From contig JAAYGN010000012.1 of the NCBI GenBank assembly GCA_012727715.1, positions 1-48,091 on the forward strand: a stretch of DNA of 48,091 nt, written 5' to 3'. Source of the DNA: Desulfovibrionales bacterium (GTDB lineage: Bacteria; Desulfobacterota; Desulfovibrionia; Desulfovibrionales; Desulfomicrobiaceae). Below, in pieces: positions 1 to 31,972 of the stretch (the stretch's first letter is position 1; each line of letters opens with the position of its first letter). The notes beneath the pieces are model-generated. The model was not told the origin of the DNA, searched no databases, and saw only the letters and a list, made by a program, of their open reading frames with translations. The position numbers and the translations under genes are program-made.

Positions 1-389
1 ACTTGCCCCAGATCGCGAAGCATATCCCGCTCGGACTCGTCACCCAGATTCAGGTGTACAGATACAGCATCTGCACCAAGTTTGATGCCGTCTTCCACTG
101 TGCTGACCAAAATTTTAGCGTTGGGAAAAGGAGAAAGAGTTGTGCTGGCCGAAAGATGAATAATCAAACCCACATCGCGACCATGTCCACGATGCCCACA
201 ACGAGATAGTCCCTTATGCATGAGCACAGCGTTGGCCCCGCCTTCGGCGACCTGGTTTACTGTTTCTCGCATGTCCACCAGGCCTTTAATGGGGCCAACG
301 GTCGTACCATGGTCCAGGGGTACAATGACAGTGCGTCCTGTGTTGCGGTTAAAGATTCTTTCCAATCGAATACTTTTGCCCATGTTCAT
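1..389 (-). CDS. ADH synthase / DhnA-type class I aldolase (N-terminal 129 codons, runs off the left edge)
   Basis: Reading leftward from ATG at 389, the protein begins [13 protein letters not shown] and carries [15 protein letters not shown], typical of archaeal-type class I aldolases (DhnA family). It then has [12 protein letters not shown] and a block resembling 2-amino-3,7-dideoxy-D-threo-hept-6-ulosonate (ADH) synthase. That enzyme condenses aspartate semialdehyde with a ketofructose phosphate and feeds 3-dehydroquinate formation in an alternative aromatic pathway; desulfovibrios are known to use this route. A GGAGG lies about 6 bases before the ATG. The attenuator just upstream, with an aromatic-rich leader peptide, independently supports an aromatic amino acid role. 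The catalytic C-terminal part, with the Schiff-base lysine, lies outside the window. A generic fructose-bisphosphate aldolase of the same fold is the alternative. Confidence 0.85.
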
Positions 390-420
390 GATGTCCTCCG
401 TTTACGGACCGGACTTGTCC

Positions 421-525
421 AGCGGCCAAAAAGAAAAAAGGGCCGCTGGCGTATGCCTGCGGCCCTTGGGTTACTATGCTTTGGTCAAAAAAAATGGCTA
501 AAGCAGTCCCTCCAGACCACAGGCT
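421..525 (-). promoter_or_regulatory. Transcription attenuator: antiterminator arm plus competing terminator
   Basis: On the minus-strand RNA, GCCUGUGGUCU (524-514, inside the leader peptide) can pair over 11 contiguous positions, three of them G-U, with GGGCCGCAGGC (465-455). The second segment is also the 5' arm of the terminator hairpin at 438-467, so the two folds exclude each other. A further segment, GGCCGCU (427-421), can pair with the released 3' arm AGCGGCC (447-441), giving the antiterminated state an extra hairpin. Inference: stalling on Phe/Tyr/Trp codons favours antitermination, and full translation favours termination. Confidence 0.8.
428..467 (-). terminator. Attenuator terminator hairpin
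   Basis: On the minus strand AAGGGCCGC (467-459) pairs with GCGGCCCTT (446-438). A small inner GGC/GCC stem lies in the loop and TTTTTTCTTTTT (439-428) follows. It ends about 40 bases before the aldolase start codon and points into that gene, so it is a leader terminator rather than the end of an upstream gene. Confidence 0.85.
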
Positions 526-587
526 CTGCAAAAATAAAAGTACCAAAAAAAGTACAAATTGCTGTGATTGGAGGTTACCTTGTTCAT
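498..587 (-). CDS. Aromatic-rich leader peptide of an attenuator (29 aa)
   Basis: This is a short open frame from ATG (587-585) to TAG (500-498). The peptide starts MNKVTSNHSNL, continues with YFFWYFYF at residues 12-19, and ends CRACGLEGLL. Eight consecutive aromatic codons covering Phe, Tyr and Trp are not expected by chance just ahead of an aromatic biosynthesis gene. Codons 22-26 overlap the predicted antiterminator arm (514-524), so a ribosome stalled in the aromatic run and one that reaches the stop codon would leave that arm in different states. Shine-Dalgarno support is weak (AAG-rich), and in-frame GTG codons lie upstream, so the exact start is uncertain. Its role is regulatory; the peptide itself probably has no function. 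Confidence 0.85.
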   Translation of the reverse strand: MNKVTSNHSNLYFFWYFYFCRACGLEGLL

Positions 588-1639: not shown

Positions 1640-2776
1640 ATGAATAGAGGAAAAAGCCTGTTTTTGGTTATTGTGCTTTTATTTTTTTGCGCCACAGCCT
1701 GGGCTGAAACCATTAAAATTGGGGCTGTGGTGTCTGTCACCGGCGCAGCATCATTTTTAGGTGAGCCCCAAAAAAACACTTTGCTCCAACTTCAAGACCT
1801 GACCAATGCCAAGGGTGGTATGGATGGGCGTCAGGTGGAACTTATTATTTATGATGACGAGTCCGATGTAAATAAATGTGTTATGGCTGCCAGAAAACTT
1901 CTGGATCAGGACCAGGTAGCCGTGGTCATTGGTCCCAGTATTTCTGGTAACACCTTGGCCATTACCCGCTTTTTTTCTTCGGCCCAGGTTCCACTTATTT
2001 CCTGTGCAGCAGCGGAAAAAATTGTTTTTCCTGTGAATCCCTGGATTTTTAATACTCCTCAACTCGATCGTCACGCAGCACTAAAAATTTTGCAGGACGC
2101 CAAGGTCAAGGGCTATACAAAGTTGGCTATTTTAACTGTATCTGATGGCTATGGTCAGGCTGGCCGAGCAGTGTTAAAAGAGCTGGCCAAAGCCCAAGGC
2201 TTTGATTTGGTGGCCGACGAGGTGTATAGCCCCAAAGATACCGATATGACCTCGCAATTGACCAAAATTAAGGGCGTATCACCAGAAGCTATTATCTGTT
2301 GGGGTACTAATCCTGGACCAGCAGTAGTGGCGCGTAACCGCATGCAACTGGGTTTGACCATCCCCTTGTACATGAGCCATGGCGTGGCTTCGGACAAATT
2401 TATTGAATTGGCCGGAGAAGCAGCTGAAGGTTTGGTTCTGCCTGCCGGGCGTTTGACAGCTGTGGATCAGGTTCCAGATGACCATCCCCAAAAAACAGTC
2501 ATTACGGACTATGTCGCAAATTATAGTCAAAAATTTAATGCGCCCATTTCTTCTTTTGGCGGGTATGCCCACGATGCATTTCTGCTCGTCCATGAGGCTG
2601 TGACCAAAGGTGGCTCCGCCAATCCAGAAGATATTCGTGATAATTTGGAAAAAATAAGTGCTCTGCCTGGTACATCGGGCATATACAGCTATAGCCCAGA
2701 CAACCACAATGGCCTGGATGAGGATGCTTTTATCATGGTCATCATTGAAAATGGTACCTGGAAAGTTGTCCCCTAA
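1640..2776 (+). CDS. livK: Branched-chain/aromatic amino acid ABC transporter, periplasmic binding protein
   Basis: The 378-residue product has a signal peptide (hydrophobic core residues 6-20, probable cleavage after AWA at 22) and then the start of a Leu/Ile/Val-binding-protein fold, ETIKIGAVVSVTGAASFLG. Type I periplasmic binding blocks follow, such as VAVVIGPSISGNTLAITRF and the interdomain TVSDGYGQAG. TAGGAGG sits 5 bases before ATG. It heads a five-gene transporter set. The true ligand cannot be read from sequence: HAAT-family binding proteins carry aliphatic or aromatic amino acids, amides, urea or aromatic acids. The ligase gene at the end of the operon hints at an aryl or acyl acid. 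Confidence 0.88.
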   Translation: MNRGKSLFLVIVLLFFCATAWAETIKIGAVVSVTGAASFLGEPQKNTLLQLQDLTNAKGGMDGRQVELIIYDDESDVNKCVMAARKLLDQDQVAVVIGPSISGNTLAITRFFSSAQVPLISCAAAEKIVFPVNPWIFNTPQLDRHAALKILQDAKVKGYTKLAILTVSDGYGQAGRAVLKELAKAQGFDLVADEVYSPKDTDMTSQLTKIKGVSPEAIICWGTNPGPAVVARNRMQLGLTIPLYMSHGVASDKFIELAGEAAEGLVLPAGRLTAVDQVPDDHPQKTVITDYVANYSQKFNAPISSFGGYAHDAFLLVHEAVTKGGSANPEDIRDNLEKISALPGTSGIYSYSPDNHNGLDEDAFIMVIIENGTWKVVP

Positions 2777-2809
2777 TCTGACTGTAATGAGGGCACAGGT
2801 TGAGGTGTT

Positions 2810-3709
2810 ATGAGTTTTTTGACGGTCATAGATTTTTCCAGTTTGCTGCAATACCTTATTACCGGACTAACTCTTGGTAGTATTTATGGCATGACCGCTT
2901 TGGGTTTTACCATTATTTTAAATAGCACTGGAGTAATCAATTTTGCCCAAGGCGAATTTGTCATGCTTGGCGGAATGATGAGTGTGTACTTCATGACCGC
3001 CTTGGGCCTAACAGAACCCGTTGCCGTGGTCTTGGCAGTACTGGGCACTACTGTGATTGGGGCTTTGGTGGAGCGTTTGGCCATTCGACCGGTACGCCAG
3101 AGTCCAGCCATCAACTTGGTCATTATCACCATAGGTGTATCCATCCTCATACGCGGGCTGGTTATGTTTTTTTGGGGCAAGGATACCCATGTGCTTCAGT
3201 CTTTTTCCGGGGATACTCCTATTATGTTTTTAGGTGCTGCCATCATGCCTCAGGCCCTGTGGGTCCTGGGAGTCAGTGCTTTTTTACTCGTAGGTTTTAA
3301 GTTTTTCTTTTCCAAAACCCTGCATGGTAAAGCCATGTTGGCCTGTTCCTTTGATGTTAAAGCCGCATCCCTGGTAGGTATTGGGGTTGAGCGCATGGTT
3401 CTTTTGTCTTTTATGATTTCTGCCTTTGTGGGTGCTGTGGGTGGTGTTATTTTAGCACCCATTACCATGACCTCCTATGATGTAGGTGTACTTTTGGGCC
3501 TGAAGGGATTTGCGGCTTGCATTTTGGGTGGGTTGGGCAATCCCTTTGGCGCTGCAGCCGGTGGGATAGTTCTTGGCATACTGGAATCTTTGGGGGCTGG
3601 GTTTATCTCTTCAGCCTATAAAGACGCTTTGGCTTTTGTTATTTTATTGATCCTTTTGTTTGCCAAGCCTTCGGGTTTATTTGGTCAAAAAGACTCCAAG
3701 CGGGTGTGA
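2810..3709 (+). CDS. livH: ABC transporter permease LivH-type
   Basis: The 299-residue polytopic membrane protein has about eight hydrophobic segments. Near the N terminus, GLTLGSIYGMTALGFTII and GVINFAQGEFVMLGG are typical of LivH, and GLKGFAACILGGLGNPFGA near the C terminus is the permease loop contacting the ATPase. It would form the inner-membrane channel with the next gene product. It begins 33 bases after livK and its stop overlaps the GTG start of livM, indicating translational coupling. Length is normal for the family. Confidence 0.9.
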   Translation: MSFLTVIDFSSLLQYLITGLTLGSIYGMTALGFTIILNSTGVINFAQGEFVMLGGMMSVYFMTALGLTEPVAVVLAVLGTTVIGALVERLAIRPVRQSPAINLVIITIGVSILIRGLVMFFWGKDTHVLQSFSGDTPIMFLGAAIMPQALWVLGVSAFLLVGFKFFFSKTLHGKAMLACSFDVKAASLVGIGVERMVLLSFMISAFVGAVGGVILAPITMTSYDVGVLLGLKGFAACILGGLGNPFGAAAGGIVLGILESLGAGFISSAYKDALAFVILLILLFAKPSGLFGQKDSKRV

Positions 3710-4680
3710 GTGTGTCCTATCGTAAAGATATGTTCTGGTTGGCAGGACTTTTTATAGTCCTGATGCTCACTCCAACCATATTACCCAACAATTATTATCT
3801 GACAATAATGATTTTGGGATGTTTGCATGCCATGATTGCTGTGGGGCTCTGTCTTCTTGTTGGTCACGCCGGGCAAATTTCTTTGGGACACGCTGGTTTT
3901 TATGGTCTGGCCGCCTATACCAGTGCCTATTTGAGTACCACCTGGGGGTTGCCGGTGGAACTATCCATGCTGGCAGGAGTGGTGTTGACCGTGGTAGTCA
4001 GTATTTTGGTGGGCATGCCGTCCTTAAAACTCAAGGGGCATTATCTGGCCATGGCCACCTTGGGTTTTGGGATCATTTTATCCATTTTGTTTACAGAAAC
4101 TGTGGACATTACCGGCGGCCCATCGGGATTTGTGGGGATTCCCCGTTTGTCTTTGGCTGGCTTTGAGCTGCACCGCGATGTGGATATCTTTCGTGTGGTG
4201 GCGATCTTGCTTTGTCTTCTGGTCTGGCTGTGTTTTAATGTTTTGCACTCCCGCATGGGCCGGGCTTTGCGTGCTCTACATACTTCAGACCAGGCAGCCC
4301 AGGCCATGGGTATTGATGTCGCTCGTCACAAGCTTTTTGTTTTTGTTTTATCTGCTGGCTTTGCCGGTCTGGCGGGTGTGCTTTATGCCCATTACTTGAC
4401 CTTTATTGCTCCAGCATCCTTTGGGTTTATGTTTTCCGTGGAACTGATGGTTATGGTTGTTTTGGGAGGCATGGTCAGCGTTCCTGGAGCGATTATTGGA
4501 GCATTTTTTATTACCATTTTGCCTGAATTATTACGTGCTTTTGAAGACATTGAAATTATCCTTTTTGGGTTGATCCTTGTTGTATGCATGATATTTTTGC
4601 CAGACGGTCTGGCTGGAGGCAGTGCACGACTTTGGGCTTGGGTCAAAACCAAACTGGCTCTAGGATGTAGCCGTGGGTAA
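3706..4680 (+). CDS. livM: ABC transporter permease LivM-type
   Basis: The 324-residue polytopic membrane protein starts at GTG (3706), overlapping the livH stop by 4 bases. Characteristic LivM segments are LLVGHAGQISLGHAGFYGL, LKGHYLAMATLGFG, DITGGPSGFVGIP and VMVVLGGMVSVPGAIIGA, the last being the ATPase-contact loop. It pairs with LivH to form the transmembrane pathway of an amino acid (HAAT-family) importer. Length and segment order are normal. The next gene starts inside its last codons, again suggesting coupled translation. Confidence 0.9.
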   Translation: MSVSYRKDMFWLAGLFIVLMLTPTILPNNYYLTIMILGCLHAMIAVGLCLLVGHAGQISLGHAGFYGLAAYTSAYLSTTWGLPVELSMLAGVVLTVVVSILVGMPSLKLKGHYLAMATLGFGIILSILFTETVDITGGPSGFVGIPRLSLAGFELHRDVDIFRVVAILLCLLVWLCFNVLHSRMGRALRALHTSDQAAQAMGIDVARHKLFVFVLSAGFAGLAGVLYAHYLTFIAPASFGFMFSVELMVMVVLGGMVSVPGAIIGAFFITILPELLRAFEDIEIILFGLILVVCMIFLPDGLAGGSARLWAWVKTKLALGCSRG

Positions 4681-5443
4681 CCCCATTTTTTCCTGCGAGC
4701 ATATTGGGGTACGTTTTGGCGGAGTGCAGGCTTTAAGTGAAGTGAGTTTTGCAGCTCAACAAGGGGCTATTACCTCCATTATTGGTCCCAATGGTGCTGG
4801 AAAAACCACGTTCTTAAATGTTATTTCGGGCATGGTTACTCAAGATCAGGGGACGCTTTTTTTTAACAATCAAGATATTTCTCAGACCAAGGCCCATGAG
4901 CGTGCAGCGTTGGGCATGTTGCGAACATTTCAGAATTTGGAAATTTTTTCCAACATGACGGTTTTGGAAAACGTGGCTGTGGGCTGTCATGGTCGCTTTA
5001 CCCTGCCTCTGTGGCATAATGTTTTACGTACTCCGTCTTCTCGGCGTCTGGAAAATCTTGTTCATGACCAAGCTCTGGCAGCCCTGGATTTTGTGGGGAT
5101 GAGTACTGCTGCATCTTCCCTGGCCAAGGATTTGGCTTTTGGGCAGCAACGTTTGCTGGAATTGGCTCGGGCTTTGGCGGCAAAACCCAGACTATTGCTT
5201 TTGGATGAACCAGCGGCTGGACTTAACATAGCTGAAACAAAATTTTTGGCCGAACTTATTATGCGTATTCGGGATAGTTATGACTTATCAGTCATCCTGG
5301 TTGAACATGATATGGACTTGGTCATGGGTATTAGTGATGCCATCATGGTTTTAAGTTTTGGCCAGACCATAAGCCATGGTACACCCGTTCAAGTGCAAAA
5401 AGACCCTCGGGTAATTGCGGCCTATTTGGGTACAGACGACTAA
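4673..5443 (+). CDS. livG: ABC transporter ATP-binding protein LivG-type
   Basis: The 256-residue ATPase starts at GTG (4673) and overlaps livM by 8 bases, with AGGA upstream. Walker A is GPNGAGKTTFLNVISG, the signature region is LAFGQQRLLELARALA (a degenerate ABC signature, as is usual in LivG), and Walker B is RLLLLDEPAAGL followed by the H-loop VEHDMDLVMG. The long insert between Walker A and the signature (residues ~85-140) is typical of LivG rather than LivF. It energises uptake with LivF as a heterodimer. Confidence 0.9.
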   Translation: MGNPIFSCEHIGVRFGGVQALSEVSFAAQQGAITSIIGPNGAGKTTFLNVISGMVTQDQGTLFFNNQDISQTKAHERAALGMLRTFQNLEIFSNMTVLENVAVGCHGRFTLPLWHNVLRTPSSRRLENLVHDQALAALDFVGMSTAASSLAKDLAFGQQRLLELARALAAKPRLLLLDEPAAGLNIAETKFLAELIMRIRDSYDLSVILVEHDMDLVMGISDAIMVLSFGQTISHGTPVQVQKDPRVIAAYLGTDD

Positions 5444-5477
5444 CTCATAGTTACAATAAACTCTGTAATAAAATGAC

Positions 5478-6221
5478 ATGAAATCTACCCTTCTTGCACT
5501 AAAAAATATTGATGTCTTTTACGGTCATATTCATGCCGTGCGTCGCGTGACCTTGCATGTGCGTCAGGGGGAGATTGTTGCCTTGATCGGTGGTAATGGA
5601 GCCGGAAAAACCACCATGTTGTGTACCATCTCTGGTTTGATCCGCCCGAGCCAAGGCAGTATCTTGTATCAGGATGTGGAAATTACCAGGCAAAGCCCTG
5701 AAGCGATTGTGCGAGCCGGACTTTCCCATGTGCCCGAGGGCCGTTTGGTCTTTAGTCCTTTGTCCGTGGAAGATAATTTACACCTGGGTGCGTATACTCG
5801 GCCTTATTTTCGCAAACGAAGTGATATGCTTCAAGATGTGGAGACCATGTACGCCATGTTTCCGGTCTTGCGTGAACGTCGTCATCAACACGCAGGAACC
5901 TTGTCTGGGGGTGAACAGCAGATGTTGGCCATTGCCAGAGCCCTCATGGCCAGGCCCAAACTTCTCCTTTTGGATGAGCCAGGGATGGGTCTTGCTCCGT
6001 TGGTGGTCAAGGATATTTTTCGGCATATTTTAAACTTGCGAGACGAGTTGGGCCTGACAGTACTTTTGGTAGAACAAAATGCGCGTTCAGCCTTAAAAGT
6101 TGCTGATCGTGGTTATGTGCTGGAAAACGGTCGAATTTTGATCCAGGGTACAGCAGGAGAACTTCTTGCCAACCATGACGTACAACGAGCCTATTTGGGA
6201 CGGGAACTGGATGAAAACTAG
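5478..6221 (+). CDS. livF: ABC transporter ATP-binding protein LivF-type
   Basis: The 247-residue ATPase has Walker A GGNGAGKTTMLCTISG, the LivF-typical HVPEGRLVFSPLSVEDNL, signature LSGGEQQMLAIARALM, Walker B KLLLLDEPGMGLAP and H-loop LLVEQNARSAL. It forms the ATPase pair with LivG. The gene follows livG after 34 bases and precedes a ligase gene on the same strand, so all six genes from 1640 probably form one operon. The Shine-Dalgarno sequence before ATG 5478 is weak, but no better in-frame start is seen. Confidence 0.9.
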   Translation: MKSTLLALKNIDVFYGHIHAVRRVTLHVRQGEIVALIGGNGAGKTTMLCTISGLIRPSQGSILYQDVEITRQSPEAIVRAGLSHVPEGRLVFSPLSVEDNLHLGAYTRPYFRKRSDMLQDVETMYAMFPVLRERRHQHAGTLSGGEQQMLAIARALMARPKLLLLDEPGMGLAPLVVKDIFRHILNLRDELGLTVLLVEQNARSALKVADRGYVLENGRILIQGTAGELLANHDVQRAYLGRELDEN

Positions 6222-6277
6222 AACTGTTTTTTTGGACAAAGGGCTGGTGATGAAACCGTCAGGCCAAGGGAGGCGAC

Positions 6278-7567
6278 ATGTACTGGCAGGCTGAGCTTGA
6301 ATGCATGGATCGGGGGGAATTGGAACTTTTACAGCTGGAGCGTCTTCAAGCAACCTTAAATCGGGTAACACGTAATGTCCCCTTGTATCGTACGCGTTTT
6401 TCCGACCTGGGGCTTGACCCCTATGATCTTCAGTCCTTGGAGGATGTCAGGAAAATTCCTTTTACCACTAAAGATGATCTGCGTGAGCATTATCCCTATG
6501 GCCTTTTTGCCGTGCCCTTGCGTGATGTGGTGCGGATGCAAGGATCGACCAGTACTCCAGGTAAACCAGGAGTGGTGGGCTATACTGTTGGTGACATTCA
6601 TCGTTGGTCCCATCTGGCAGCTCGAATTTTGGTCGCTGGCGGAGTTACCAAGGATGATGCAGTACAAATTGCCTTTAATTATGGGTTATATACCAGTGCT
6701 TTTGGCATTCATTCTGGAGCGGAGTTGCTGGGTGCTTCGGTTATTCCCAGCTCCAGCAGTGACGCCCAGCGACAAATTTTGATCATGCAGGATTATCGTA
6801 GCACTGCCCTTACCTGTTCACCTAGCTATGCTCTGCATCTCGCTGATACCCTGGATGAGCTGGGCATCAACAAAACAGCCCTGAGTTTACGCTTTGGTCT
6901 TTTTGGTTCAGAGCCCTGGACCGAAGAAATGCGCCAGGAAATTGAAGCACGACTTGGTATTTTGGCGACAGACAATTACGGATTAAGTGAAATTACCAGT
7001 GTTGCTGGGGAATGTTTGCAACGAGACGGGCTGCACATCAATGAAGATCATTTTCTGGCTGAAATTATCGATCCGCTCACAGGCCAGGTTCTTCCGGTGG
7101 GACACAAAGGAGAATTGGTGCTTACGACTTTGACCAAGGAGGCTTTTCCCTTGATTCGTTTTCGTACTGGTGATCTTACCACGCTCATGGACTCCGAGTG
7201 TGCTTGTGGGCGGACCTTGCGGCGTATGTCACGCATTCCCGGACGCAGTGATGATATGCTCATTATTCGTGGAGTTAATGTTTTTCCTTCCCAGATTAAC
7301 GAGGTGATCATCAGTACTGGACTTATGGACCCCCATTATCAGATTGTTTTGGACCGGGTGGGGCAGATGGATAGAGCCACCTTATGTCTTGAGGCCCCAG
7401 AGTCCTTTTGTACAGATTCCATCAAGGAGTCCCAGCGTATTTTGGAAAATGTGCGCCTGCGTTTACAGACAGCTTTGGGAGTGACTTTTGAGGTGCGTTT
7501 GGTGGAGCCGAGGTCCATTGATCAGCAATACGGCGGTCGGGTGCTGGATAAGCGGACTTTGATATAG
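6278..7567 (+). CDS. Phenylacetate-CoA-ligase-like adenylate-forming enzyme
   Basis: The 429-residue product matches PaaK-type ligases in length and layout. It has an N-terminal LNRVTRNVPLYRTRF block, the adenylate loop GSTSTPGKPGVVGYT, FGSEPWTEEMR, the acyl-adenylate motif NYGLSE, RTGDLTTL and the C-terminal hinge region GRSDDMLIIRGVNVFPSQI. Such enzymes activate aryl- or acylacetates with ATP and CoA. GGGAGG lies just before ATG 6278. Its position behind livKHMGF suggests that it activates either the imported compound or an aryl acid made from an imported aromatic amino acid via 2-keto acid oxidoreductases. The exact substrate is inferred, not shown. Confidence 0.85.
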   Translation: MYWQAELECMDRGELELLQLERLQATLNRVTRNVPLYRTRFSDLGLDPYDLQSLEDVRKIPFTTKDDLREHYPYGLFAVPLRDVVRMQGSTSTPGKPGVVGYTVGDIHRWSHLAARILVAGGVTKDDAVQIAFNYGLYTSAFGIHSGAELLGASVIPSSSSDAQRQILIMQDYRSTALTCSPSYALHLADTLDELGINKTALSLRFGLFGSEPWTEEMRQEIEARLGILATDNYGLSEITSVAGECLQRDGLHINEDHFLAEIIDPLTGQVLPVGHKGELVLTTLTKEAFPLIRFRTGDLTTLMDSECACGRTLRRMSRIPGRSDDMLIIRGVNVFPSQINEVIISTGLMDPHYQIVLDRVGQMDRATLCLEAPESFCTDSIKESQRILENVRLRLQTALGVTFEVRLVEPRSIDQQYGGRVLDKRTLI

Positions 7568-22858: not shown

Positions 22859-24820
22859 ATGGCAGGAACAGACAGGTCACATCTTAAAAGAAGAACTTCC
22901 TTTATAACTCTTGTTGTGTTTTCCATAGCCATTGGTATTTTTATTTTTATTGCTTTGCGACCGGATATACTCCATTTCGGCTCTTCACGTCTCGATTCTC
23001 AGATTGTAATTTTGCCTGCTCAAGCTGCGGCTGAAGGAGGCCAATGGCGTCTCGTCAGTCAATGGCAAAATCCCGGTGATATTTCAGAGCGTCATTTTTA
23101 TCTTATTGAATTCAAAAATATTCCAGGATGGGTTTCTCCCAGTCCTGTAATTTTGCGTCAGGATAAAACAGATGTTGTTATTGAGGGGCAATATACACCT
23201 ATTGAATATAGTGAGCGCACCATTTTGTCCCTGGATGGATCAAGTACCATGGCTCATCGTTTGATTCCGGAGCTGGCCACTGCCTATCTTGAAAGTATTG
23301 GAGCAGACGAGGTGCGCAAGCAGGCTGGCAGCACGGCTGACGAATCTATTGTACAGGGTATTTTTTATGCATCCAAAGAAATTCAGACCATCCGCATTAA
23401 GGGACAGGGAACTTCAGCTGGTTTAGCTGCCTTTATGGCCAATGATTGTGACATTGCCATGGCCAGTTACCCTTTTTGGGGTCACAGGGATAAGTTTTTG
23501 CATAGTCCTTGGGAGGGTGCGAAGGAAAAATTTATCATTGGTATGGATGCAGTGGCAGTTATAGTTTCAGCCAGCAATGCTGTAAAAACTTTGACCAAGG
23601 ACGAGGTTAAAAAAATATTTAGTGGGCAGATTGACAATTGGAATCAAGTTGGTGGCCCTGATACTCCGATTCATGTTTTTGCCCTAGCCAGTGATTTTGG
23701 CACCAGACTTTTTTTTCAAGATGTTTTTATGGATGGTGCTGAACTTGTAACAACCGCTAATATTGTCGATAGCCATGAAAGTTTATCTGGCTATATTGCC
23801 CAGGATTCTTTGGCCATAGGTTTTAGTAGTGTAGCCTTGGCCAATCAATGTCGAGAAGTATCTATTCAACAAACCAATGAGTCAGAAGTATTTTTGCCAT
23901 CATCTGAAAATATACGCCAGCGACGTTATCTAGGGTTTAGGCTCTTGTATCTCTATCTCAACCCTAAGCCGTCCAGCCAATATGCTCAAGATTTTATCCG
24001 GTTCTCCCAGTCTGCTTTGGGTCAAAAATTGGTTGAGAAGTTTGGGTTTGTCAGCAAAGATAGTGATGATGAAACTGCTTTAAATAAAGATGAACCTAGT
24101 GTAATGTCAGACAAAAATACAGAACAGTCCATTACACTTGTACAAAACAGTACTTTTGATCAAGACCTTGGTGAAGAAATAAGTGATAATGCCACAGGAG
24201 AAGATCGTGATACTGATCTTACTTCAGAGACTGACTTTACAATAGTTGAAGAGCCTATTGTACCATTACAAAATTCTACAGATTCTGATGAAACAAAAGA
24301 AAAATATCAAGTAATAGAAGAGGTGGATAAACTAAATGATGGGCAAGTATTTGTGCGTTCTGAGTCAAGAGTAGAGTATAATGCTTCAGAAGTTCTTCCT
24401 GTGTTAATCCAGCCTGATGAAGAAAAAGTTCCTGAGTCCTTACGTCGTAAGGTGTATCAAGAATACCAAGAGGGAATTGAAGGGGCTGTGCATCTATCTA
24501 CAGTATTTCGATTTAAATTGGGTAGTGTAGAGTTGGATCAAGAGTCTTCGGACAATATTCGCAAGGTAGTTGCTTTTTTTAAACAACAGGAAAATCAGGG
24601 CAAGCAGCCCATAGTTGTTGGATTTTCTGATACAGCAGGTGATTATTCCGGAAACTTATCTATTTCACGAGTTCGAGCACAAAAGGTTGCCAGTGTTTTG
24701 CAGGCGCAGGGTTTGGACCATGTTTTGGTTCTTGCAGCAGGGGAAGAAGATCCCGAAGAACCCAATGATACGCGAGCAGGCCGGGAGAAGAATCGCCGGG
24801 TAGAAGTGTGGATGAAGTAG
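22859..24820 (+). CDS. PstS-like substrate-binding domain fused to an OmpA C-terminal domain
   Basis: The 653-residue protein starts with a basic stretch and one helix (residues ~15-35) that anchors or exports it. Residues ~120-400 form a PstS-like binding domain: LSLDGSSTMAHRLIPELA, GQGTSAGLAAF, DEVKKIFSGQIDNWNQVGG and SDFGTRLFFQDVF. An acidic low-complexity linker (~400-535) leads to an OmpA-like peptidoglycan-binding domain (~545-653) with VVGFSDTAGDYSGNLSISR and GREKNRRVEVWMK. It would bind an anion-like ligand in the periplasm while tethered to the wall. It lies in a signalling locus rather than beside pst genes, suggesting a sensory or structural job. GGAG precedes ATG. Confidence 0.85.
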   Translation: MAGTDRSHLKRRTSFITLVVFSIAIGIFIFIALRPDILHFGSSRLDSQIVILPAQAAAEGGQWRLVSQWQNPGDISERHFYLIEFKNIPGWVSPSPVILRQDKTDVVIEGQYTPIEYSERTILSLDGSSTMAHRLIPELATAYLESIGADEVRKQAGSTADESIVQGIFYASKEIQTIRIKGQGTSAGLAAFMANDCDIAMASYPFWGHRDKFLHSPWEGAKEKFIIGMDAVAVIVSASNAVKTLTKDEVKKIFSGQIDNWNQVGGPDTPIHVFALASDFGTRLFFQDVFMDGAELVTTANIVDSHESLSGYIAQDSLAIGFSSVALANQCREVSIQQTNESEVFLPSSENIRQRRYLGFRLLYLYLNPKPSSQYAQDFIRFSQSALGQKLVEKFGFVSKDSDDETALNKDEPSVMSDKNTEQSITLVQNSTFDQDLGEEISDNATGEDRDTDLTSETDFTIVEEPIVPLQNSTDSDETKEKYQVIEEVDKLNDGQVFVRSESRVEYNASEVLPVLIQPDEEKVPESLRRKVYQEYQEGIEGAVHLSTVFRFKLGSVELDQESSDNIRKVVAFFKQQENQGKQPIVVGFSDTAGDYSGNLSISRVRAQKVASVLQAQGLDHVLVLAAGEEDPEEPNDTRAGREKNRRVEVWMK

Positions 24821-24856
24821 CTTCATTGGTGGAGCGGGTAGAGGACGGAAAAAACT

Positions 24857-25228
24857 ATGCAAAATATTTTGGTTATTGATGACGATAAACTTATGTGTCT
24901 GGCTCTAGCAAAAATATTGACTTCAGCTGGGTACAATGTGAGTCAGGCCTATGATGGTGAGGAGGGCTTGCATATATATCGGAGTCAACACTTTGACTTG
25001 GTTATCACTGATTTGATCATGCCGGACAAAGAAGGCATTCAGATTATTCGAGAGCTACGCAAAGACAATAATAAAGTACGCATCATTGCTATGTCGGCAG
25101 GAGGAAGGGGGGGGGCCACAGATTACCTCAAGTGGGCACGCCTTATGGGAGCCAAGCAATGTTTGAGCAAACCAATTAAGCGTGAGGAGTTGCTGAATGC
25201 TGTAACCGCAGTTTTGGCAATGCCTTGA
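24857..25228 (+). CDS. Stand-alone response regulator receiver (CheY-like)
   Basis: The 123-residue single receiver domain begins MQNILVIDDDKL (acidic pocket residues 8-10), with phospho-acceptor D52 in VITDLIMP, a serine switch in IIAMSAGG and the conserved lysine in LSKPIKREEL. It has no output domain, so it probably acts by protein-protein contact or as a phosphate relay or sink. It sits between the PstS/OmpA fusion and the hybrid kinase and is a likely partner of the three Hpt domains. A GAGG lies about 15 bases upstream and a nearer GGA 10 bases before ATG. Confidence 0.9.
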   Translation: MQNILVIDDDKLMCLALAKILTSAGYNVSQAYDGEEGLHIYRSQHFDLVITDLIMPDKEGIQIIRELRKDNNKVRIIAMSAGGRGGATDYLKWARLMGAKQCLSKPIKREELLNAVTAVLAMP

Positions 25229-25286
25229 ATTTTTAGATGTTATCAACCTTTTTTCTTTGCCATTAGGCAATGTTTACGAGTGGGAT

Positions 25287-28200
25287 ATGGAAAGAAAGAA
25301 AAGACTTTTTAATCTACTCCAGCTCAAAATCCATCTTGGGATTCAAATCATCCTGGTAGTTTGTTTTTTTGCTCTGGGATATTTTATTTATCTGACTCAA
25401 CTTGATTTACTAAAAAATGATATCCAACGTCAGGGCCTGCAACAAGCAGAAATGGTTGCAGAAGCCAGTGTCACCTCTATTCAAAGAAAAAGTTACTATG
25501 TTCTTGAGGAGTTGGCTGCTAAGGCCGAGTACTCTTCCCTTGTGGCCTACTGTCAAATAACAGATTCTCTTGGAAAATCTTTTTTGCAAAATGAAGTGCA
25601 GCCAGGCTTAACGCGCGATGACCTTGCAGGGGCTTATGGTCCTAATGAGGTTGTGGTTGTTACCAAGGAAGTATTTTTTGATGGCAATATTGTCGGGTAC
25701 GTCAAGCTGGGGATGTTTGTTGATCAGGCCCAACGCAAGGCACAGCAAACCACTATCCAACTTATTGCTGGTTTTGCTGCGGTGCTCGGACTTATTGCCA
25801 TATTTCTTTATGTCTATTTAAATCACCTACTCATCTTGCCTGTTGTGAACCTCTCTATTTTAACCGAAAGTCTGTCCAAGGGAGAATTTGTCACTACCAA
25901 CTTGGATCGACGTAAAGATGAGATAGGCGTTCTGGCTCATGGTTTTAATAACATGAGCCGTAACCTGAAAGAATTGTATAAAACTCTTGAGAAAAAAGTT
26001 GAAGCTCGCACAGAGGATTTAAATAACGCCTACAATGAGTTGCAGGCCATTTTTGACAACTCTTTGGTGGGTATTGCTGTTCTTTCCTCAGACCACCATG
26101 TAGTCAGGGCAAATAGCAGGTTTGCAGCTATTTTTGGTTATGACATGGAGGAGATTCCTCAGATTCCGCCAGAAAAATTTCATGTTTCCACTCGAGATTT
26201 CGATCTTTTTATTGAAAAATTTTATAGTCGTCTTCATGAAGCTGAAATTGCGCAATTAGAGTTTCAGTTTCGAAAAAAGGATGGAGCGGTGTTTTGGAGC
26301 CAGGTATCAGCCAAGGCTATTGACCCTTTGGATTTGGATAAGGGGGTCATTTTTGTTTTGGAGGATATTTCTGACCGGAAGAAAGCGAGTGAGATGCTCA
26401 GACAGCATGCTGAGGACTTGCGAGTGGCCAAGGAAGAGGCAGACAAGGCTACCCGTTCAAAAAGTGAGTTTTTAGCTAGAATGAGCCATGAAATCCGAAC
26501 TCCCATGAATGCAATTTTGGGTATGGCTGAAATGCTCCAGGAATCAGAGCTTAGTCCAAATCAACAAGAATATGTTGAAACCTTTAGCTCGGCTGGTGAG
26601 CTGCTTTTAGGCATAATCAATGATATCCTTGATTTTTCCAAGATTGAAGTTGGACAAATCAAACTGGAGTCAATCCCCTTTGTTTTGCGGGATCTTGTGG
26701 AGGATGTGACCAAACTTTTTATTTATCGTGCAGAAGAGAAGGGGCTTATTCTTGAGCAATCAGTTGCTCCCGGGTTATTGACGCGATATATTGGAGATCC
26801 AACCCGATTACGTCAGATCATTATTAACTTGGTGGGTAATGCCATTAAGTTTACCAATTACGGTAAAGTAAGTTTGTCGGTAACTGAGGATGTACTTGAT
26901 GATGGTTCCCCGTGTTGCTTGTTTAAGGTTGCTGATACAGGGGTAGGGATACCTAGGGTCAAGTTGGCAACAATCTTCGAAAGTTTTGCCCAGGCAGATT
27001 CTTCAACAACTCGGGAGTTTGGTGGCACTGGTCTTGGGCTGGCCATTTCCAAAAAACTTGTGGAACTGATGGGAGGCGATCTCTGGGTTGAAAGTGAAAT
27101 CAATGAGGGAACTGTTTTTTACTTTAAACTTCCCCTGGTTCCAGATTTTCAAACTCCTAAGATTGAGTCTCGAGCCCACCTTCAACCGGACACCAAAATT
27201 TTGATCATTGAAGGCAACTCTGCTTTGCCTGAGAGTATGTCCAATCAGGTACGTAGTTGGGGCATTGCTCCTGTGGTTAAGGATTCTGCAGCGATAGCCA
27301 TTGATGTGTTGGCCAACACAACGGACAATCCCTTTGATATTATTCTTATTGAAGCCATGGTGGATGGTGAGGCTGCTATTGACATCGCTCAACTCCTTAT
27401 TGGCCAGGGCCTTGATCTGGCCCCCATGGTTTTGGTGGTTAATTCCACACAAGAATTGGCTGACCTCCCTGAAGCCCAAGATTTTGGACCTGTTACTTAT
27501 ATTTTGCGTCAAGAACTCCAGGGGCAATTACAGGTACAAATTGCAGAAATTCTTTCCACTGTTCAGCGTCGTCATTTAGCTGATTTTGCAGGAAAGGCGT
27601 GGAAAATTTTATTGGTTGATGATGTTGAAGCCAATAGACGTGTTGTGGAACTTTTTTTACGAGATAGTAATGTGCAAATTATCCATGCAGAAAATGGAAA
27701 AGTTGCTTTGGATAAATTCACCGAGGAGCTCTTTGATCTGGTTCTTATGGATATGGAAATGCCGGTCATGGATGGTCTGGAAGCAACTCGAAGAATTCGG
27801 CTTTGGGAGCAGGAAAAGCGTGAATTCAAAACTCCCATTATCGCCCTGACCGCACATGCCTTTCAGGAACACAGACATAAAACCATGGATGCTGGTTGCA
27901 CTGAGTTTTTAGCCAAGCCAGTCAAAAAACAAGCTCTTTTAAATATTATTGATCTTTTTGCAGGGCAAAGAGAATCCTTTGATCAGCCTGCAGTAACAAG
28001 TCCTGTGGAAAAGACCGAGCCTGAACACATTGATTCTCCCATTCGTATAGATCCCGAATTAGAGGATTTGCGTCCTCTTTTCTTACGCACTGTGAGGGAT
28101 TTTCAAGTGCAGATAGCTGAGGCCATATTAGCAAAAGATTTTGTCACTATCCAACGCTGTGGTCATAGTTTGAAAGGTCTTGGGAGCACCTATGTTGTTG

Positions 28201-29057
28201 ATGAGATTAGTCAGGCTGGTAGAATTATAGAAGCAGCAGCCAGAGCACGTCAGCTCGCAGTCATAACTGAAGCGGCAAATCATTTGGCTATATTTATGGA
28301 CACGGGGAAGTCTCCCAAAATTCAGACTGCTGGCGAGTTTCTGGCTGAAGCAGTAGAAACTGGTATGACTCCCGATAGTTCTGGGCGTTTTGTTGTGCAT
28401 GTGTCATCAGAAATGACCGAATTAATACCATTTTTAATGGATGCCATGCAAAAAGATTTGGAATTAATGCACAAGGCCCTTGAACAAAAAGACTTCCCTA
28501 CAATTCGACGTTTTGGCCATAGCCATAAAGGTTTTGGAAGTACCTATGGCTTTCAGTTTATCAGTGTGGTTGGCAAAAAAGTGCAAATTGCAGCTGATGC
28601 CCAAGATGTAGAACAAGTTTCTGAGTTATTGAGGAAACTTGGTGAGTATCTGGAACGAGTGGATATTGTTTATGACGGCCCAGATTTGGTGGAGCAGGAA
28701 ATTGTTGAGCCTTTGTCCGTAGATACTCAGACCCAGGAAGCCGAAGCACCAGGAAAATCATTTGTGGTGGAAGTTGACGCAGAACTCTTTGAACTTGTGC
28801 CTTTATTTTTGGATACAATGAAGACGAATGTTACAGAAATGCGCCAGGCATTAGTTGATAAAAATTATGATGTTATTTGTCGGCATGGGCATAGTCAAAA
28901 AGGGTTAGGTAGTACGTATGGGTTTGATTATTTGGGGCACCTGGGTTTTCAAATCGAGTCTGCTGGGCGTCATAAACATGATACAGAGCTCGGGGCCCTT
29001 CTCGATGAAATGGAAGATTATATGAATAAAGTGCAAGTTACAAAGCAGGAAGGATAA
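25287..29057 (+). CDS. Hybrid sensor histidine kinase with degenerate receiver, receiver and three Hpt domains
   Basis: The product is 1256 residues from ATG 25287; a TTG start 10 codons earlier is possible. Approximate order: TM ~12-32, periplasmic sensor ~35-160, TM ~165-185, HAMP ~188-238, PAS ~245-365, HisKA with MSHEIRTPMNA (~400), HATPase ~505-615 with NLVGNAIKF, DTGVGIP and GGTGLGLAI, degenerate receiver ~635-758 (EG for DD, ILIEAMVDG lacking the Asp), true receiver ~771-891 with LVDDVEANRR and VLMDMEMPVMDG, then three Hpt domains. The Hpt domains carry HSLKGLGSTY (~958), HSHKGFGSTY (~1076) and HSQKGLGSTY (~1200). All three Hpt histidines are intact, suggesting several receiver outputs. 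The gene ends 2 bases before a receiver gene. Confidence 0.93.
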   Translation: MERKKRLFNLLQLKIHLGIQIILVVCFFALGYFIYLTQLDLLKNDIQRQGLQQAEMVAEASVTSIQRKSYYVLEELAAKAEYSSLVAYCQITDSLGKSFLQNEVQPGLTRDDLAGAYGPNEVVVVTKEVFFDGNIVGYVKLGMFVDQAQRKAQQTTIQLIAGFAAVLGLIAIFLYVYLNHLLILPVVNLSILTESLSKGEFVTTNLDRRKDEIGVLAHGFNNMSRNLKELYKTLEKKVEARTEDLNNAYNELQAIFDNSLVGIAVLSSDHHVVRANSRFAAIFGYDMEEIPQIPPEKFHVSTRDFDLFIEKFYSRLHEAEIAQLEFQFRKKDGAVFWSQVSAKAIDPLDLDKGVIFVLEDISDRKKASEMLRQHAEDLRVAKEEADKATRSKSEFLARMSHEIRTPMNAILGMAEMLQESELSPNQQEYVETFSSAGELLLGIINDILDFSKIEVGQIKLESIPFVLRDLVEDVTKLFIYRAEEKGLILEQSVAPGLLTRYIGDPTRLRQIIINLVGNAIKFTNYGKVSLSVTEDVLDDGSPCCLFKVADTGVGIPRVKLATIFESFAQADSSTTREFGGTGLGLAISKKLVELMGGDLWVESEINEGTVFYFKLPLVPDFQTPKIESRAHLQPDTKILIIEGNSALPESMSNQVRSWGIAPVVKDSAAIAIDVLANTTDNPFDIILIEAMVDGEAAIDIAQLLIGQGLDLAPMVLVVNSTQELADLPEAQDFGPVTYILRQELQGQLQVQIAEILSTVQRRHLADFAGKAWKILLVDDVEANRRVVELFLRDSNVQIIHAENGKVALDKFTEELFDLVLMDMEMPVMDGLEATRRIRLWEQEKREFKTPIIALTAHAFQEHRHKTMDAGCTEFLAKPVKKQALLNIIDLFAGQRESFDQPAVTSPVEKTEPEHIDSPIRIDPELEDLRPLFLRTVRDFQVQIAEAILAKDFVTIQRCGHSLKGLGSTYVVDEISQAGRIIEAAARARQLAVITEAANHLAIFMDTGKSPKIQTAGEFLAEAVETGMTPDSSGRFVVHVSSEMTELIPFLMDAMQKDLELMHKALEQKDFPTIRRFGHSHKGFGSTYGFQFISVVGKKVQIAADAQDVEQVSELLRKLGEYLERVDIVYDGPDLVEQEIVEPLSVDTQTQEAEAPGKSFVVEVDAELFELVPLFLDTMKTNVTEMRQALVDKNYDVICRHGHSQKGLGSTYGFDYLGHLGFQIESAGRHKHDTELGALLDEMEDYMNKVQVTKQEG

Positions 29058-29059
29058 CT

Positions 29060-29572
29060 ATGTATGTCCAAGACATTGATTCTATTGTTGGTCAATATGT
29101 TTCCCGCATCCCATTTTCTGTATTGCTCATTGATGATGAGTTTTTAATTGGGGAGGCCATGCGCATCAAGCTGGCTTCAGAAAAGGACATAACTTTTCAT
29201 TATTGTAAAGAGCCTGACAAGGCTTTGGAACAAGCCATCAGTACTCAGCCCACAACCATAATGCTTGATTTGGTCATGCCTGGTGTCAATGGTTTAACTA
29301 TGGTCAAATTTTTTAAAAGTAGCGAAGACTTTCACGATGTTCCTTTGATCGTGCTTTCCGCTCGTGAAGAACCAGAGCTTAAGAAGAAGGCTATTGCTCT
29401 TGGTGCCAATGACTATATGATTAAACTGCCAGACAAAACCGAACTTGTGGCACGAATTCGTTGTCATTCTGAGCGCTACGTCTTTAAACAGCAGCGCAAT
29501 GAACTTGTTATGAAAATTCATGCCATGTCCGGTAACTCCAAGGATGAGATAGTCTCTCCCTATCTTGAGTGA
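29060..29572 (+). CDS. Response regulator with single receiver domain and short C-terminal tail
   Basis: The 170-residue product has a receiver at residues ~20-140: SVLLIDDE (D25, D26), acceptor D70 in IMLDLVMPGVNG, IVLSARE and YMIKLPDK. The family lysine is in IKLPD rather than the usual KP. A ~30-residue helical tail follows, with no GGDEF, DNA-binding or HD output. It begins 2 bases after the kinase stop and is likely a direct target of its Hpt domains. Receivers of this subtype are often joined to GGDEF domains; here none follows. Confidence 0.88.
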   Translation: MYVQDIDSIVGQYVSRIPFSVLLIDDEFLIGEAMRIKLASEKDITFHYCKEPDKALEQAISTQPTTIMLDLVMPGVNGLTMVKFFKSSEDFHDVPLIVLSAREEPELKKKAIALGANDYMIKLPDKTELVARIRCHSERYVFKQQRNELVMKIHAMSGNSKDEIVSPYLE

Positions 29573-29653
29573 ATAGAGACCGAAAATTTCGCTCAGACCA
29601 AGAGGTTACAATATATCTTTTTATTTTTGCTGTAAGTTAAGCACAAGGTTTCC

Positions 29654-31972
29654 ATGATTAAATTACAACTTGTCAATATAAAAAATATTTTTCAGGAAAA
29701 ATATTCATTTGAATCTGCTTGGACCAAGTGCACAGAGGATCTTATAGCAATATTTAATATTGAACAGGTGCGACTCTACAAACGAGATCCCAAAAAAACA
29801 GAATTATTTTCTGTAGTACAGGTGTCTGGCCAACCTCTTGAAATTCGACTTCCATTTTCTACATCCAGTATTGCAGGATATACAGCGCTGACACAATTAC
29901 CTTTTGTATTAAAAAGTCTTAATGAAAAGGAATTGCAATCTATTCATGTCGATTTAAGTTTTGATACTCAATATGATAATTTCACTGGAGTGAAAACAAA
30001 AAATCTTATTTCCATGCCTATTCAGCATGAAAATTCCTTTATGGGTGTCTTGCAATTGGTGAACAAGGTTTCAGGTGATTTTAGCCGCGAGGATGAGGCT
30101 TTTTGTCGGCTGTTAGTCAATATTATGGGGCAAAAACTTGTCGAGGAATATAATCTTCCTCGCGGTCCTTACGAGCAACTGGTCTTTCGTGGTCTTATTA
30201 CCCAAAAACAATTGGAAGATGCTCAGGAAAAATCCTCTCAACGCCCTTTATCCACGTCGTATTTTCTCCAAGCCGATTATGATTTGAGTGTCAAAGATAT
30301 TGGTGCTTCGTTAGAACTTTTTTACCAAACGCCTTTTGTGCAGTTTGCCAACAATCCTGTATCAGACAAAATGCTTAAAAGAATCAATCGCCAGTACTTA
30401 ATCAAAAATATTTGGCTCCCCTGGCGTTTTGATGGTGATCATGTTGTTGTGTTGGTCTCCAATCCTCATGACATAGATAAAAATGAAGAAATACGTCGTA
30501 TAGTCAATGCCAAAAGCTATGAGTTTCGTGTTGCTCTTCAAGAAGAAATTTTAGCTTTTTTGGGCGATTTTAGCCAATTACCGCCTAAAGTACGTAGCAA
30601 GCTAGAAGAAAATAAGGCAGGTGATGCGACTTTAGATCCTGGAGATTTTTTGGGGGATAGTGGTGAAGATCCTCGCAGTAATAGTGATCTTGCCTCTGCC
30701 TTGGCAGGGCTCGCCGGAGAAGCTGATGAAGAGCTTGAGTCTGCTCATCTCCCTGAAGAAGATATCTCCCAGGAAAGTCGCCAGCTAGCTGTACGCTTTG
30801 TTAATCAAATCATCATGCATGCCCATAAAATTGGGGCGTCAGACATCCATATTGAACCATCTCGCACTGGCCGACCAGGACTTGTCAGAATGCGTATTGA
30901 CGGCTCCTGTGAAGAGGTTTTATCTCTTCCTGAGAGTACCATTAAGCCTGTTGTTTCGCGTATAAAGATTATTTCTAATTTGGATATTTCTGAAAGGCGG
31001 TTGCCCCAGGATGGCAAAGCTCGGGTGCGTTTTAAAGGGCGTGATCTTGAACTGCGTATTGCGACCTTACCCACGGTCAATGGTGAGTCTGTTGTATTAC
31101 GCATGTTGTCCTCTGGTCAGTCGCTTCCTTTTGAGAAATTAAATTTATCCAAGAAAAACCAAGCAGAAATAGAGCGGTTGATGATCAAACCCCATGGGAT
31201 TTTTTTAGTTGTGGGGCCAACTGGTTCAGGAAAAACAACAACACTGCATTCGATCCTAGCTAAAATCAACACACCAGATAAAAAAATTTGGACTGTAGAA
31301 GATCCTGTGGAAATTACCCAGCCCGGCTTACAACAAGTGCAAGTTGACAGTGCCATTGGTCTGGATTTTCCACGAATTATGCGTTCTTTTCTTCGAGCAG
31401 ATCCGGATGTGATTTTGGTTGGCGAAATGCGTGACTTTCAAACAGCACAAATAGGTGTGGAAGCATCTTTGACCGGGCACATGGTATTCTCCACCTTGCA
31501 TACCAACTCAGCCCCTGAAACAGTGACACGACTTTTAGATATGGGTATTGAACCCCTTAATTTTTCCGAGGCGTTGCAAGGTGTGCTGGCTCAGCGTTTG
31601 GTAAAAACCCTGTGTTCCAGTTGTAAGCAGGAAAGCACGCCCAGTGATGAAGTCTGGGAACACTTGATTAAGCAGTATGGACAAGATTTTTTTCCAGAAC
31701 TTCAGGTTCAACGTTCCTCTGTGAAAATTTTTACAGCCAAGGGCTGCGCTAGGTGTGGGCAGTCTGGCTATAGAGGACGCACAGGCATCCATGAGTTACT
31801 GGTGGCCACGCCAGAAATTCGCAAAGCTATTGTTCAAAAACAGTCAGCAGAAGCAATTGCGACCCTGGCTATAGAACAGGGTATGCGTACATTGTATCAG
31901 GATGGTATTGCCAAGGTTATCAAAGGCGATATTGACATCTTCCAACTACAAAAGGTGACCGTATCTGATTAA
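29654..31972 (+). CDS. GAF-domain PilB/GspE-type ATPase
   Basis: The 772-residue product starts with a GAF-like domain (residues ~20-165, containing NLISMPIQHENSFMGVLQL). It has a type II secretion N-terminal domain (~170-300, with RGLITQKQLEDAQ) and a full GspE/PilB ATPase (~370-765). ATPase motifs are Walker A VVGPTGSGKTTTLHSIL, Walker B/Asp box VILVGEMRDFQTAQ, His box GHMVFSTLHTNSAPET, and a zinc tetracysteine CSSC...CARCGQSGYRGRTG. Such ATPases drive pilus or pseudopilus assembly. No other pil/gsp gene lies here, so it must act with an apparatus encoded elsewhere. The GAF domain suggests control by a small ligand. Confidence 0.9.
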   Translation: MIKLQLVNIKNIFQEKYSFESAWTKCTEDLIAIFNIEQVRLYKRDPKKTELFSVVQVSGQPLEIRLPFSTSSIAGYTALTQLPFVLKSLNEKELQSIHVDLSFDTQYDNFTGVKTKNLISMPIQHENSFMGVLQLVNKVSGDFSREDEAFCRLLVNIMGQKLVEEYNLPRGPYEQLVFRGLITQKQLEDAQEKSSQRPLSTSYFLQADYDLSVKDIGASLELFYQTPFVQFANNPVSDKMLKRINRQYLIKNIWLPWRFDGDHVVVLVSNPHDIDKNEEIRRIVNAKSYEFRVALQEEILAFLGDFSQLPPKVRSKLEENKAGDATLDPGDFLGDSGEDPRSNSDLASALAGLAGEADEELESAHLPEEDISQESRQLAVRFVNQIIMHAHKIGASDIHIEPSRTGRPGLVRMRIDGSCEEVLSLPESTIKPVVSRIKIISNLDISERRLPQDGKARVRFKGRDLELRIATLPTVNGESVVLRMLSSGQSLPFEKLNLSKKNQAEIERLMIKPHGIFLVVGPTGSGKTTTLHSILAKINTPDKKIWTVEDPVEITQPGLQQVQVDSAIGLDFPRIMRSFLRADPDVILVGEMRDFQTAQIGVEASLTGHMVFSTLHTNSAPETVTRLLDMGIEPLNFSEALQGVLAQRLVKTLCSSCKQESTPSDEVWEHLIKQYGQDFFPELQVQRSSVKIFTAKGCARCGQSGYRGRTGIHELLVATPEIRKAIVQKQSAEAIATLAIEQGMRTLYQDGIAKVIKGDIDIFQLQKVTVSD

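Follow-up and report, generated by a model that had tools for sequence, protein, structure and literature searches.

The window analysed here, a stretch of 48,091 nucleotides, is contig C40 of the assembly of a Desulfovibrionales bacterium (G000), and its first positions lie within a gene on the minus strand. This gene is adhS (aroA'), which encodes ADH synthase (TIGR01949, E 6e-57; PF01791). It starts with an ATG at position 389, preceded by the Shine-Dalgarno sequence GGAGGA (394–399, minus strand), and it is truncated by the contig end such that only its first 129 codons (1–389, minus strand) are present. We looked for DHQ synthase II in the same genome and did not find it, which is likely the result of an assembly gap because contig C36 ends within pheA and contig C40 within adhS. 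Divergent from adhS, the plus strand carries a Liv-type ABC transporter cluster together with a phenylacetate-CoA ligase-like gene (1640–7567), which perhaps salvage aryl acids for the synthesis of aromatic amino acids; a 163-aa ORF on the same strand (749–1240) returned no match in an NCBIfam search. Elsewhere in the genome (L004 on contig C145, about the 2363–2500 region), a divergent paralogue of ADH synthase (39% identity) is located upstream of a short ORF (MKANTTFTSFCWWWQHNTHAAESTMA), behind which come a hairpin resembling a terminator and a second copy of trpB. This short ORF may be another Trp leader.

Leader ORF and alternative RNA stems upstream of adhS

Upstream of adhS on the minus strand, we found an ORF of 29 codons (498–587; MNKVTSNHSNLYFFWYFYFCRACGLEGLL) that is conserved in relatives, with its start codon ATG at 587 and its stop codon TAG at 500–498. 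Its codons 12–19 (554–531: TAC TTT TTT TGG TAC TTT TAT TTT) are aromatic without exception (8/8) and constitute the regulatory codon run YFFWYFYF, so that the leader of 29 codons and eight successive aromatic codons read in the first-pass annotation is present. The RNA of this region follows the classical four-segment plan. Segment 1 (574–562, minus strand; CCTCCAATCACAG) is the 5′ arm of a protector hairpin that was found in the minimum-energy fold, is accompanied by compensatory changes in relatives, and was not part of the first-pass annotation; it pairs with positions 522–509 of segment 2 (524–509, minus strand), and the aromatic run forms the loop of this 1:2 helix. Segment 2 sits inside the leader ORF and can instead pair through positions 524–514 with positions 465–455 of segment 3 (467–455, minus strand), resulting in an 11-bp antiterminator when G-U pairs are counted, exactly as the 11-position pairing had been proposed.

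Segment 3 is also the 5′ arm of the terminator, with which the antiterminator competes. The 3′ arm is segment 4 (450–438, minus strand), followed by a U-rich tract (437–428), and the terminator stem-loop (467–438, minus strand) with its U-rich tract has a predicted energy of about −23 kcal/mol. The proposed distance of about 40 bases between this terminator and the adhS start holds for the end of the U-tract (~39–40 bases 5′ of the ATG at 389), while the stem itself ends ~49 bases away. A fifth segment (427–419, minus strand; GGCCGCTGG) contains 9 nt complementary to segment 4, and it could possibly form a 4:5 hairpin once the polymerase has read through. Among the matches listed, GCCGCCGG occurs at the segment-5 position in several relatives and not in others. 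As a whole, the 210-nt leader stretch is more stable than shuffled versions of itself (z −3.6).

These segments would allow the following mechanism. When Phe, Tyr and Trp are all plentiful, the ribosome would pass the run to the stop codon and cover segment 2, upon which the 3:4 terminator would form and transcription would stop. A shortage of any one of them would stall the ribosome in the run, where it would occupy segment 1; the 2:3 pairing would then block the terminator, and RNA polymerase would proceed into adhS. In a leader that is not translated, the 1:2 helix would form first, with termination as the predicted outcome. We used constrained folds, in which segment 4 had not yet been made, to place the ribosome at different codons. 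A ribosome on Y12–Y16 permits the 11-bp antiterminator (about −31 kcal/mol), while a ribosome on F19 already covers part of segment 2, and a fold constrained by a ribosome at the stop codon has 6 bp left (−14.4 kcal/mol). Therefore, a stall at any of the first ~five aromatic codons should antiterminate, and a run to the stop codon should terminate. When the complete leader is folded to equilibrium, the terminator prevails at every ribosome position tested, and control must therefore be kinetic, as in known attenuators.

Conservation, covariation and the start of the leader

Conservation across relatives had been set beforehand as the check on which the pan-aromatic reading could fail, and the reading withstood it. 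We compared 97 non-identical regions upstream of adhS genes in the Desulfovibrionales and Desulfobacterales, and all counts of leaders given here refer to relatives that are related by descent and hence are not independent events. A leader ORF with at least 6/8 aromatic codons was present in 76 of the 97 regions, compared to 0/97 reverse complements and 12/1940 Markov shuffles (0.6%). Within a looser set (at least 5/8 aromatic codons, n = 86), a terminator before adhS was detected in 83 leaders by a script that demanded U directly after the stem; one of the three leaders that failed (L019) has a hairpin visible by eye, with three bases between the stem and the U-run. In 87% of these 83 leaders, the sequence downstream of the aromatic codons can pair with the 5′ arm of the terminator (p < 0.05). 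In an alignment of 31 leaders, 97.6% of the cells of the 2:3 helix are paired, versus 34–47% for slid controls, and the terminator stem is nearly invariant among relatives. One base of segment 3 is a mismatch in most terminators and yet is paired in the antiterminator, where a curated set of 79 leaders has U-A in 50, C-G in 17, U-G in 8, A-U in 2 and no pair in 2. This covariation of a terminator-mismatched base with segment 2 is the strongest single sign of the antiterminator. The 1:2 helix is paired in 78% of cells (31 leaders) with compensatory changes; it is strong in the window and its close relatives and scores weakly in many high-GC leaders. Overall, the aromatic runs, the terminator and the covarying antiterminator are all conserved through the Desulfovibrionales and reach the Desulfobacterales, and the attenuator design is more widespread than the first-pass annotation supposed.

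Conserved alternative stems would also be expected of a leader-independent RNA switch (a riboswitch, a T-box or a protein-binding attenuator) next to which the aromatic ORF is incidental, and a putative attenuator listed for Desulfovibrio vulgaris carries no mention of a peptide in that listing (PMC1173090). Scanning the leader against Rfam at permissive and gathering thresholds returned no T-box and no riboswitch match. A large conserved aptamer is absent, and the sequence varies freely outside the stems and the run. No feature of the leader is as consistent as its aromatic codons, whose meaning changes with the operon. We consider such a switch to be extremely unlikely.

A candidate −35 box (TTGACA, 627–622, minus strand), which the first-pass annotation did not contain, lies 40 nt upstream of the leader ATG. 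Similar TTGACA-like boxes are located 34–42 nt upstream of the leader ATG in 78/86 leaders versus 4% of Markov controls. The best −10 hexamers end 6–12 nt upstream of the ATG (76 leaders), and in the window the putative −10 hexamer is the weak candidate TAAAAA (603–598, minus strand), 10 nt before the leader ATG. Motifs resembling a Shine-Dalgarno sequence were found at 11 of 86 leader starts versus 84 of 86 adhS starts. Because the promoter spacing is short and Shine-Dalgarno motifs are rare at leader starts, the leader mRNA probably has almost no 5′ untranslated part and would be translated in a near-leaderless manner. A near-absent 5′ untranslated part has been reported for trpL of Sinorhizobium meliloti, whose mRNA begins at the ATG (PMC7298713).

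Codon content, operon type and the tyrA tail

To relate codon identity to operon type, loci were classed by the genes downstream of adhS. All 61 runs upstream of operonic adhS genes (located before DHQ synthase II, pheA, aroA, tyrA and, in many, trpE) contain Phe and Tyr, and a Trp codon is present in 59 of these 61 versus 0/15 runs upstream of standalone adhS genes. Most runs at such standalone second adhS genes are dominated by Tyr (YYYY, in Solidesulfovibrio and Fundidesulfovibrio) or by Phe (FFFFFSF, in Pseudodesulfovibrio and others), and some contain both. The Desulfobacterales with pheA directly after adhS have runs of Phe and Tyr almost without Trp. Both leaders were recognisable in 18 genomes, with Trp in 18/18 operonic and 0/18 standalone leaders; three further genomes (G024, G041 and G082) had no clear leader at their standalone adhS. 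On the adhS tree, the standalone label must change at least four times along well-supported branches, and therefore the standalone state is not a single inherited event. Two tandem adhS copies that share one operon and one upstream pan-aromatic leader were observed in L191 (contig C10 of G141, 24640–30500), and the spacing between adhS and DHQ synthase II suggests a tandem adhS pair in L089 and L102 likewise.

Just two operonic leaders have no Trp codon (NSYVFVYDYY and NPRVFAYGYY), and they belong to G011 and G005. Both genomes are 99% complete, G011 as a single contig; both are without trpD and a true trpE, and their operon stops after tyrA. An order-wide scan found trpD to be absent from 13/224 genomes. 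Among the trpD-less genomes, G126, G164, G236 and G237 have leaders that are rich in Phe and Tyr and contain no Trp codon, and a search for trpE in these four gave nothing, or only a weak match at 36% identity, bringing the total of trp-less genomes with Trp-free leaders to six. No trpD was found in G004, G016 and G122, whose leaders still contain a Trp codon; these are drafts of 250–490 contigs, and the exception may be explained by missing contigs. Of the other genomes without trpD, G238 and G240 have no recognisable leader, G241 gave only a distant adhS match, and G156 gave no adhS match. Leader codon content tracks operon type and Trp prototrophy.

This pattern bears on two explanations in which the peptide itself is the active product. 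A TnaC-like arrest peptide, in which free aromatic amino acids, and not uncharged tRNA, would trigger stalling by the nascent aromatic chain, might account for the unusual, bulky leader peptide and for the RACGLEG tail that is kept in close relatives. However, the make-up of the run changes freely among relatives (YFFWYFYF, FYFWFWF, YWYYWF, FFFFFSF, YYYY) and follows gene context, which fits codon counting and not a fixed arrest motif. No conserved arrest residues were found in the leader peptide among relatives, in which the run is reshuffled or replaced. The tail overlaps segment 2 of the RNA, and the covariation of that segment with segment 3 explains why the tail is conserved. We regard an arrest peptide as highly unlikely. 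Since eight successive aromatic residues are strongly hydrophobic, the ORF could also encode a functional small hydrophobic protein, such as a membrane microprotein, with no role in attenuation. This has a negligible probability in our assessment, as Tyr-only and Phe-only versions exist, the ORF has a fixed position before a terminator, the antiterminator is made of its own codons, and Trp codons are absent from trp-less lineages.

Instead, we consider it very likely that the leader belongs to a ribosome-mediated transcription attenuator that senses charged tRNA-Phe, tRNA-Tyr and tRNA-Trp jointly and controls aroA'-aroB'-pheA-aroA-tyrA, for which we infer the stalling, kinetics and starvation response outlined above. 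The pan-aromatic attenuator originally proposed is supported by conserved runs, covarying stems, and Trp codons that follow the operonic copies. As far as sequence can tell, all features of an attenuator appear to be present, except that the 1:2 helix is less conserved. In GC-rich relatives, TTT and TAT predominate in the leader run though their adhS favours TTC and TAC, which perhaps leaves the loop unstructured.

A second set of Trp codons is found further along the operon. Where the operon of a relative includes trpE, its tyrA gene contains 3–4 Trp codons only a few codons upstream of the stop (KALWWWRKQHDAGGPAS), and such tails are followed by a terminator and then by trpE (L120, L125 and other trpE loci). 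A strong terminator is located after 41 of the 43 different WWW-containing TyrA tails, while five of the six tails with WW only are not followed by one. The stretch after the Trp codons pairs with the terminator 5′ arm (p < 0.05) in 76% of 42 cases. On this basis, the tyrA 3′ end looks like the leader of a Trp-only attenuator for trpE within the operon.

In the genome of the window, contig C36 carries pheA-aroA-tyrA with a WWW tail, and neither a terminator nor trpE is located behind this tail. The trp genes from trpE onward are on contig C73, preceded by a duplicate of the pan-aromatic leader (MNKIIPNHSSLYFFWCFYCNGSCGLGELL, about 80% identical); this second whole-leader copy before trpE on another contig was not in the first-pass annotation. 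The copy is joined to a 66-codon tyrA 3′ remnant that includes WWW and the terminator, which places tandem attenuators before trpE (L005 on C73, 1857–2335: the pan-aromatic leader copy, then the tyrA remnant with its terminator). Thus, the organism appears to have a split aromatic/trp operon. The simplest reading is a duplication followed by an adhS-to-tyrA deletion in one copy and a trp deletion in the other, with the order of events being the one we infer, and operon fission appears to have kept both attenuators in tandem. More broadly, it is probable that the order possesses a two-tier codon-meter system consisting of a near-leaderless pan-aromatic leader, a Trp-only tyrA-tail leader and Tyr- or Phe-tuned isozyme leaders, with a codon content that follows gene loss and operon fission.

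Such a system would show that neither a repressor nor a riboswitch is needed for first-step control of a branched pathway that leads to three end products. From the sequences of relatives, the leader codon mix appears to have been retuned to the products that each operon or genome still makes. The natural variants (FYW, Y, F and FY, with several trp-less lineages) would make sensing specificity readable from sequence, and leader codons would be a simple predictor of the end product served by each ADH synthase isozyme. The tyrA tail would be an example of a regulatory leader formed by the terminal part of a structural gene. Together, these leaders help to fill in the regulation of the archaeal-type dehydroquinate route (ADH/DHQ-synthase-II) in sulfate reducers.

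Comparison with known leaders and isozymes

The enterobacterial trp and pheA attenuators each sense one amino acid. As in these systems, the leader peptide described here contains codons for the end products, and the protector, antiterminator and terminator share segments 1–4 in the same order. Unlike in these systems, a single run upstream of the first committed step combines codons for Phe, Tyr and Trp, segment 2 is within the leader ORF, and the leader lacks a Shine-Dalgarno sequence. In ilvGMEDA of E. coli, one leader reads several branched-chain end products. The ilvB leader of Actinobacteria likewise covers more than one end product of its branched pathway (PMC1262725), and ilv operon leaders that read Ile, Val and Leu jointly are known. 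These branched-chain leaders are the nearest precedent for the logic of several end products, in a different pathway; unlike them, the mixture here is split into a Tyr-type and a Phe-type at the second isozyme gene, and Trp codons are missing in six trp-less genomes. The first-pass claim of a distinct design therefore needs narrowing, as single leaders for several end products are known from branched-chain pathways, while the open literature searched describes none for aromatic pathways. In this literature, with subscription papers mostly outside its scope, neither mixed aromatic leaders nor Desulfovibrio leaders were found to be described, nor were ADH synthase isozyme-specific leaders or a tyrA tail as a trp leader.

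On how sulfate reducers regulate the archaeal-type dehydroquinate route, this literature gave only a prediction from 2005. Table 7 of Song et al. 2005 lists a putative attenuator before aroA'>aroB'>aroQ-pheA>aroF>tyrA>[trp operon] in Desulfovibrio vulgaris (PMC1173090), that is, before the same operon in the same bacterial order. In the part of that paper that holds the listing, the attenuator is a website-predicted structure, with no mention of a leader peptide, codons, conservation or a second tier (PMC1173090). The leader described here is very probably a homologue of this attenuator, which we know from the 2005 listing alone. With regard to its predicted start, the leader resembles trpL of S. 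meliloti, whose mRNA starts at the ATG of the leader ORF (PMC7298713). However, trpL is a Trp leader with a reported transcript start, while the near-leaderless state proposed here derives from promoter spacing. In E. coli, the first-step isozymes AroF, AroG and AroH are tuned to different aromatic end products via repressors and feedback inhibition. The ADH synthase isozymes resemble them as first-step isozymes tuned to separate aromatic end products, but here the tuning apparently occurs through the codon content of separate attenuators.
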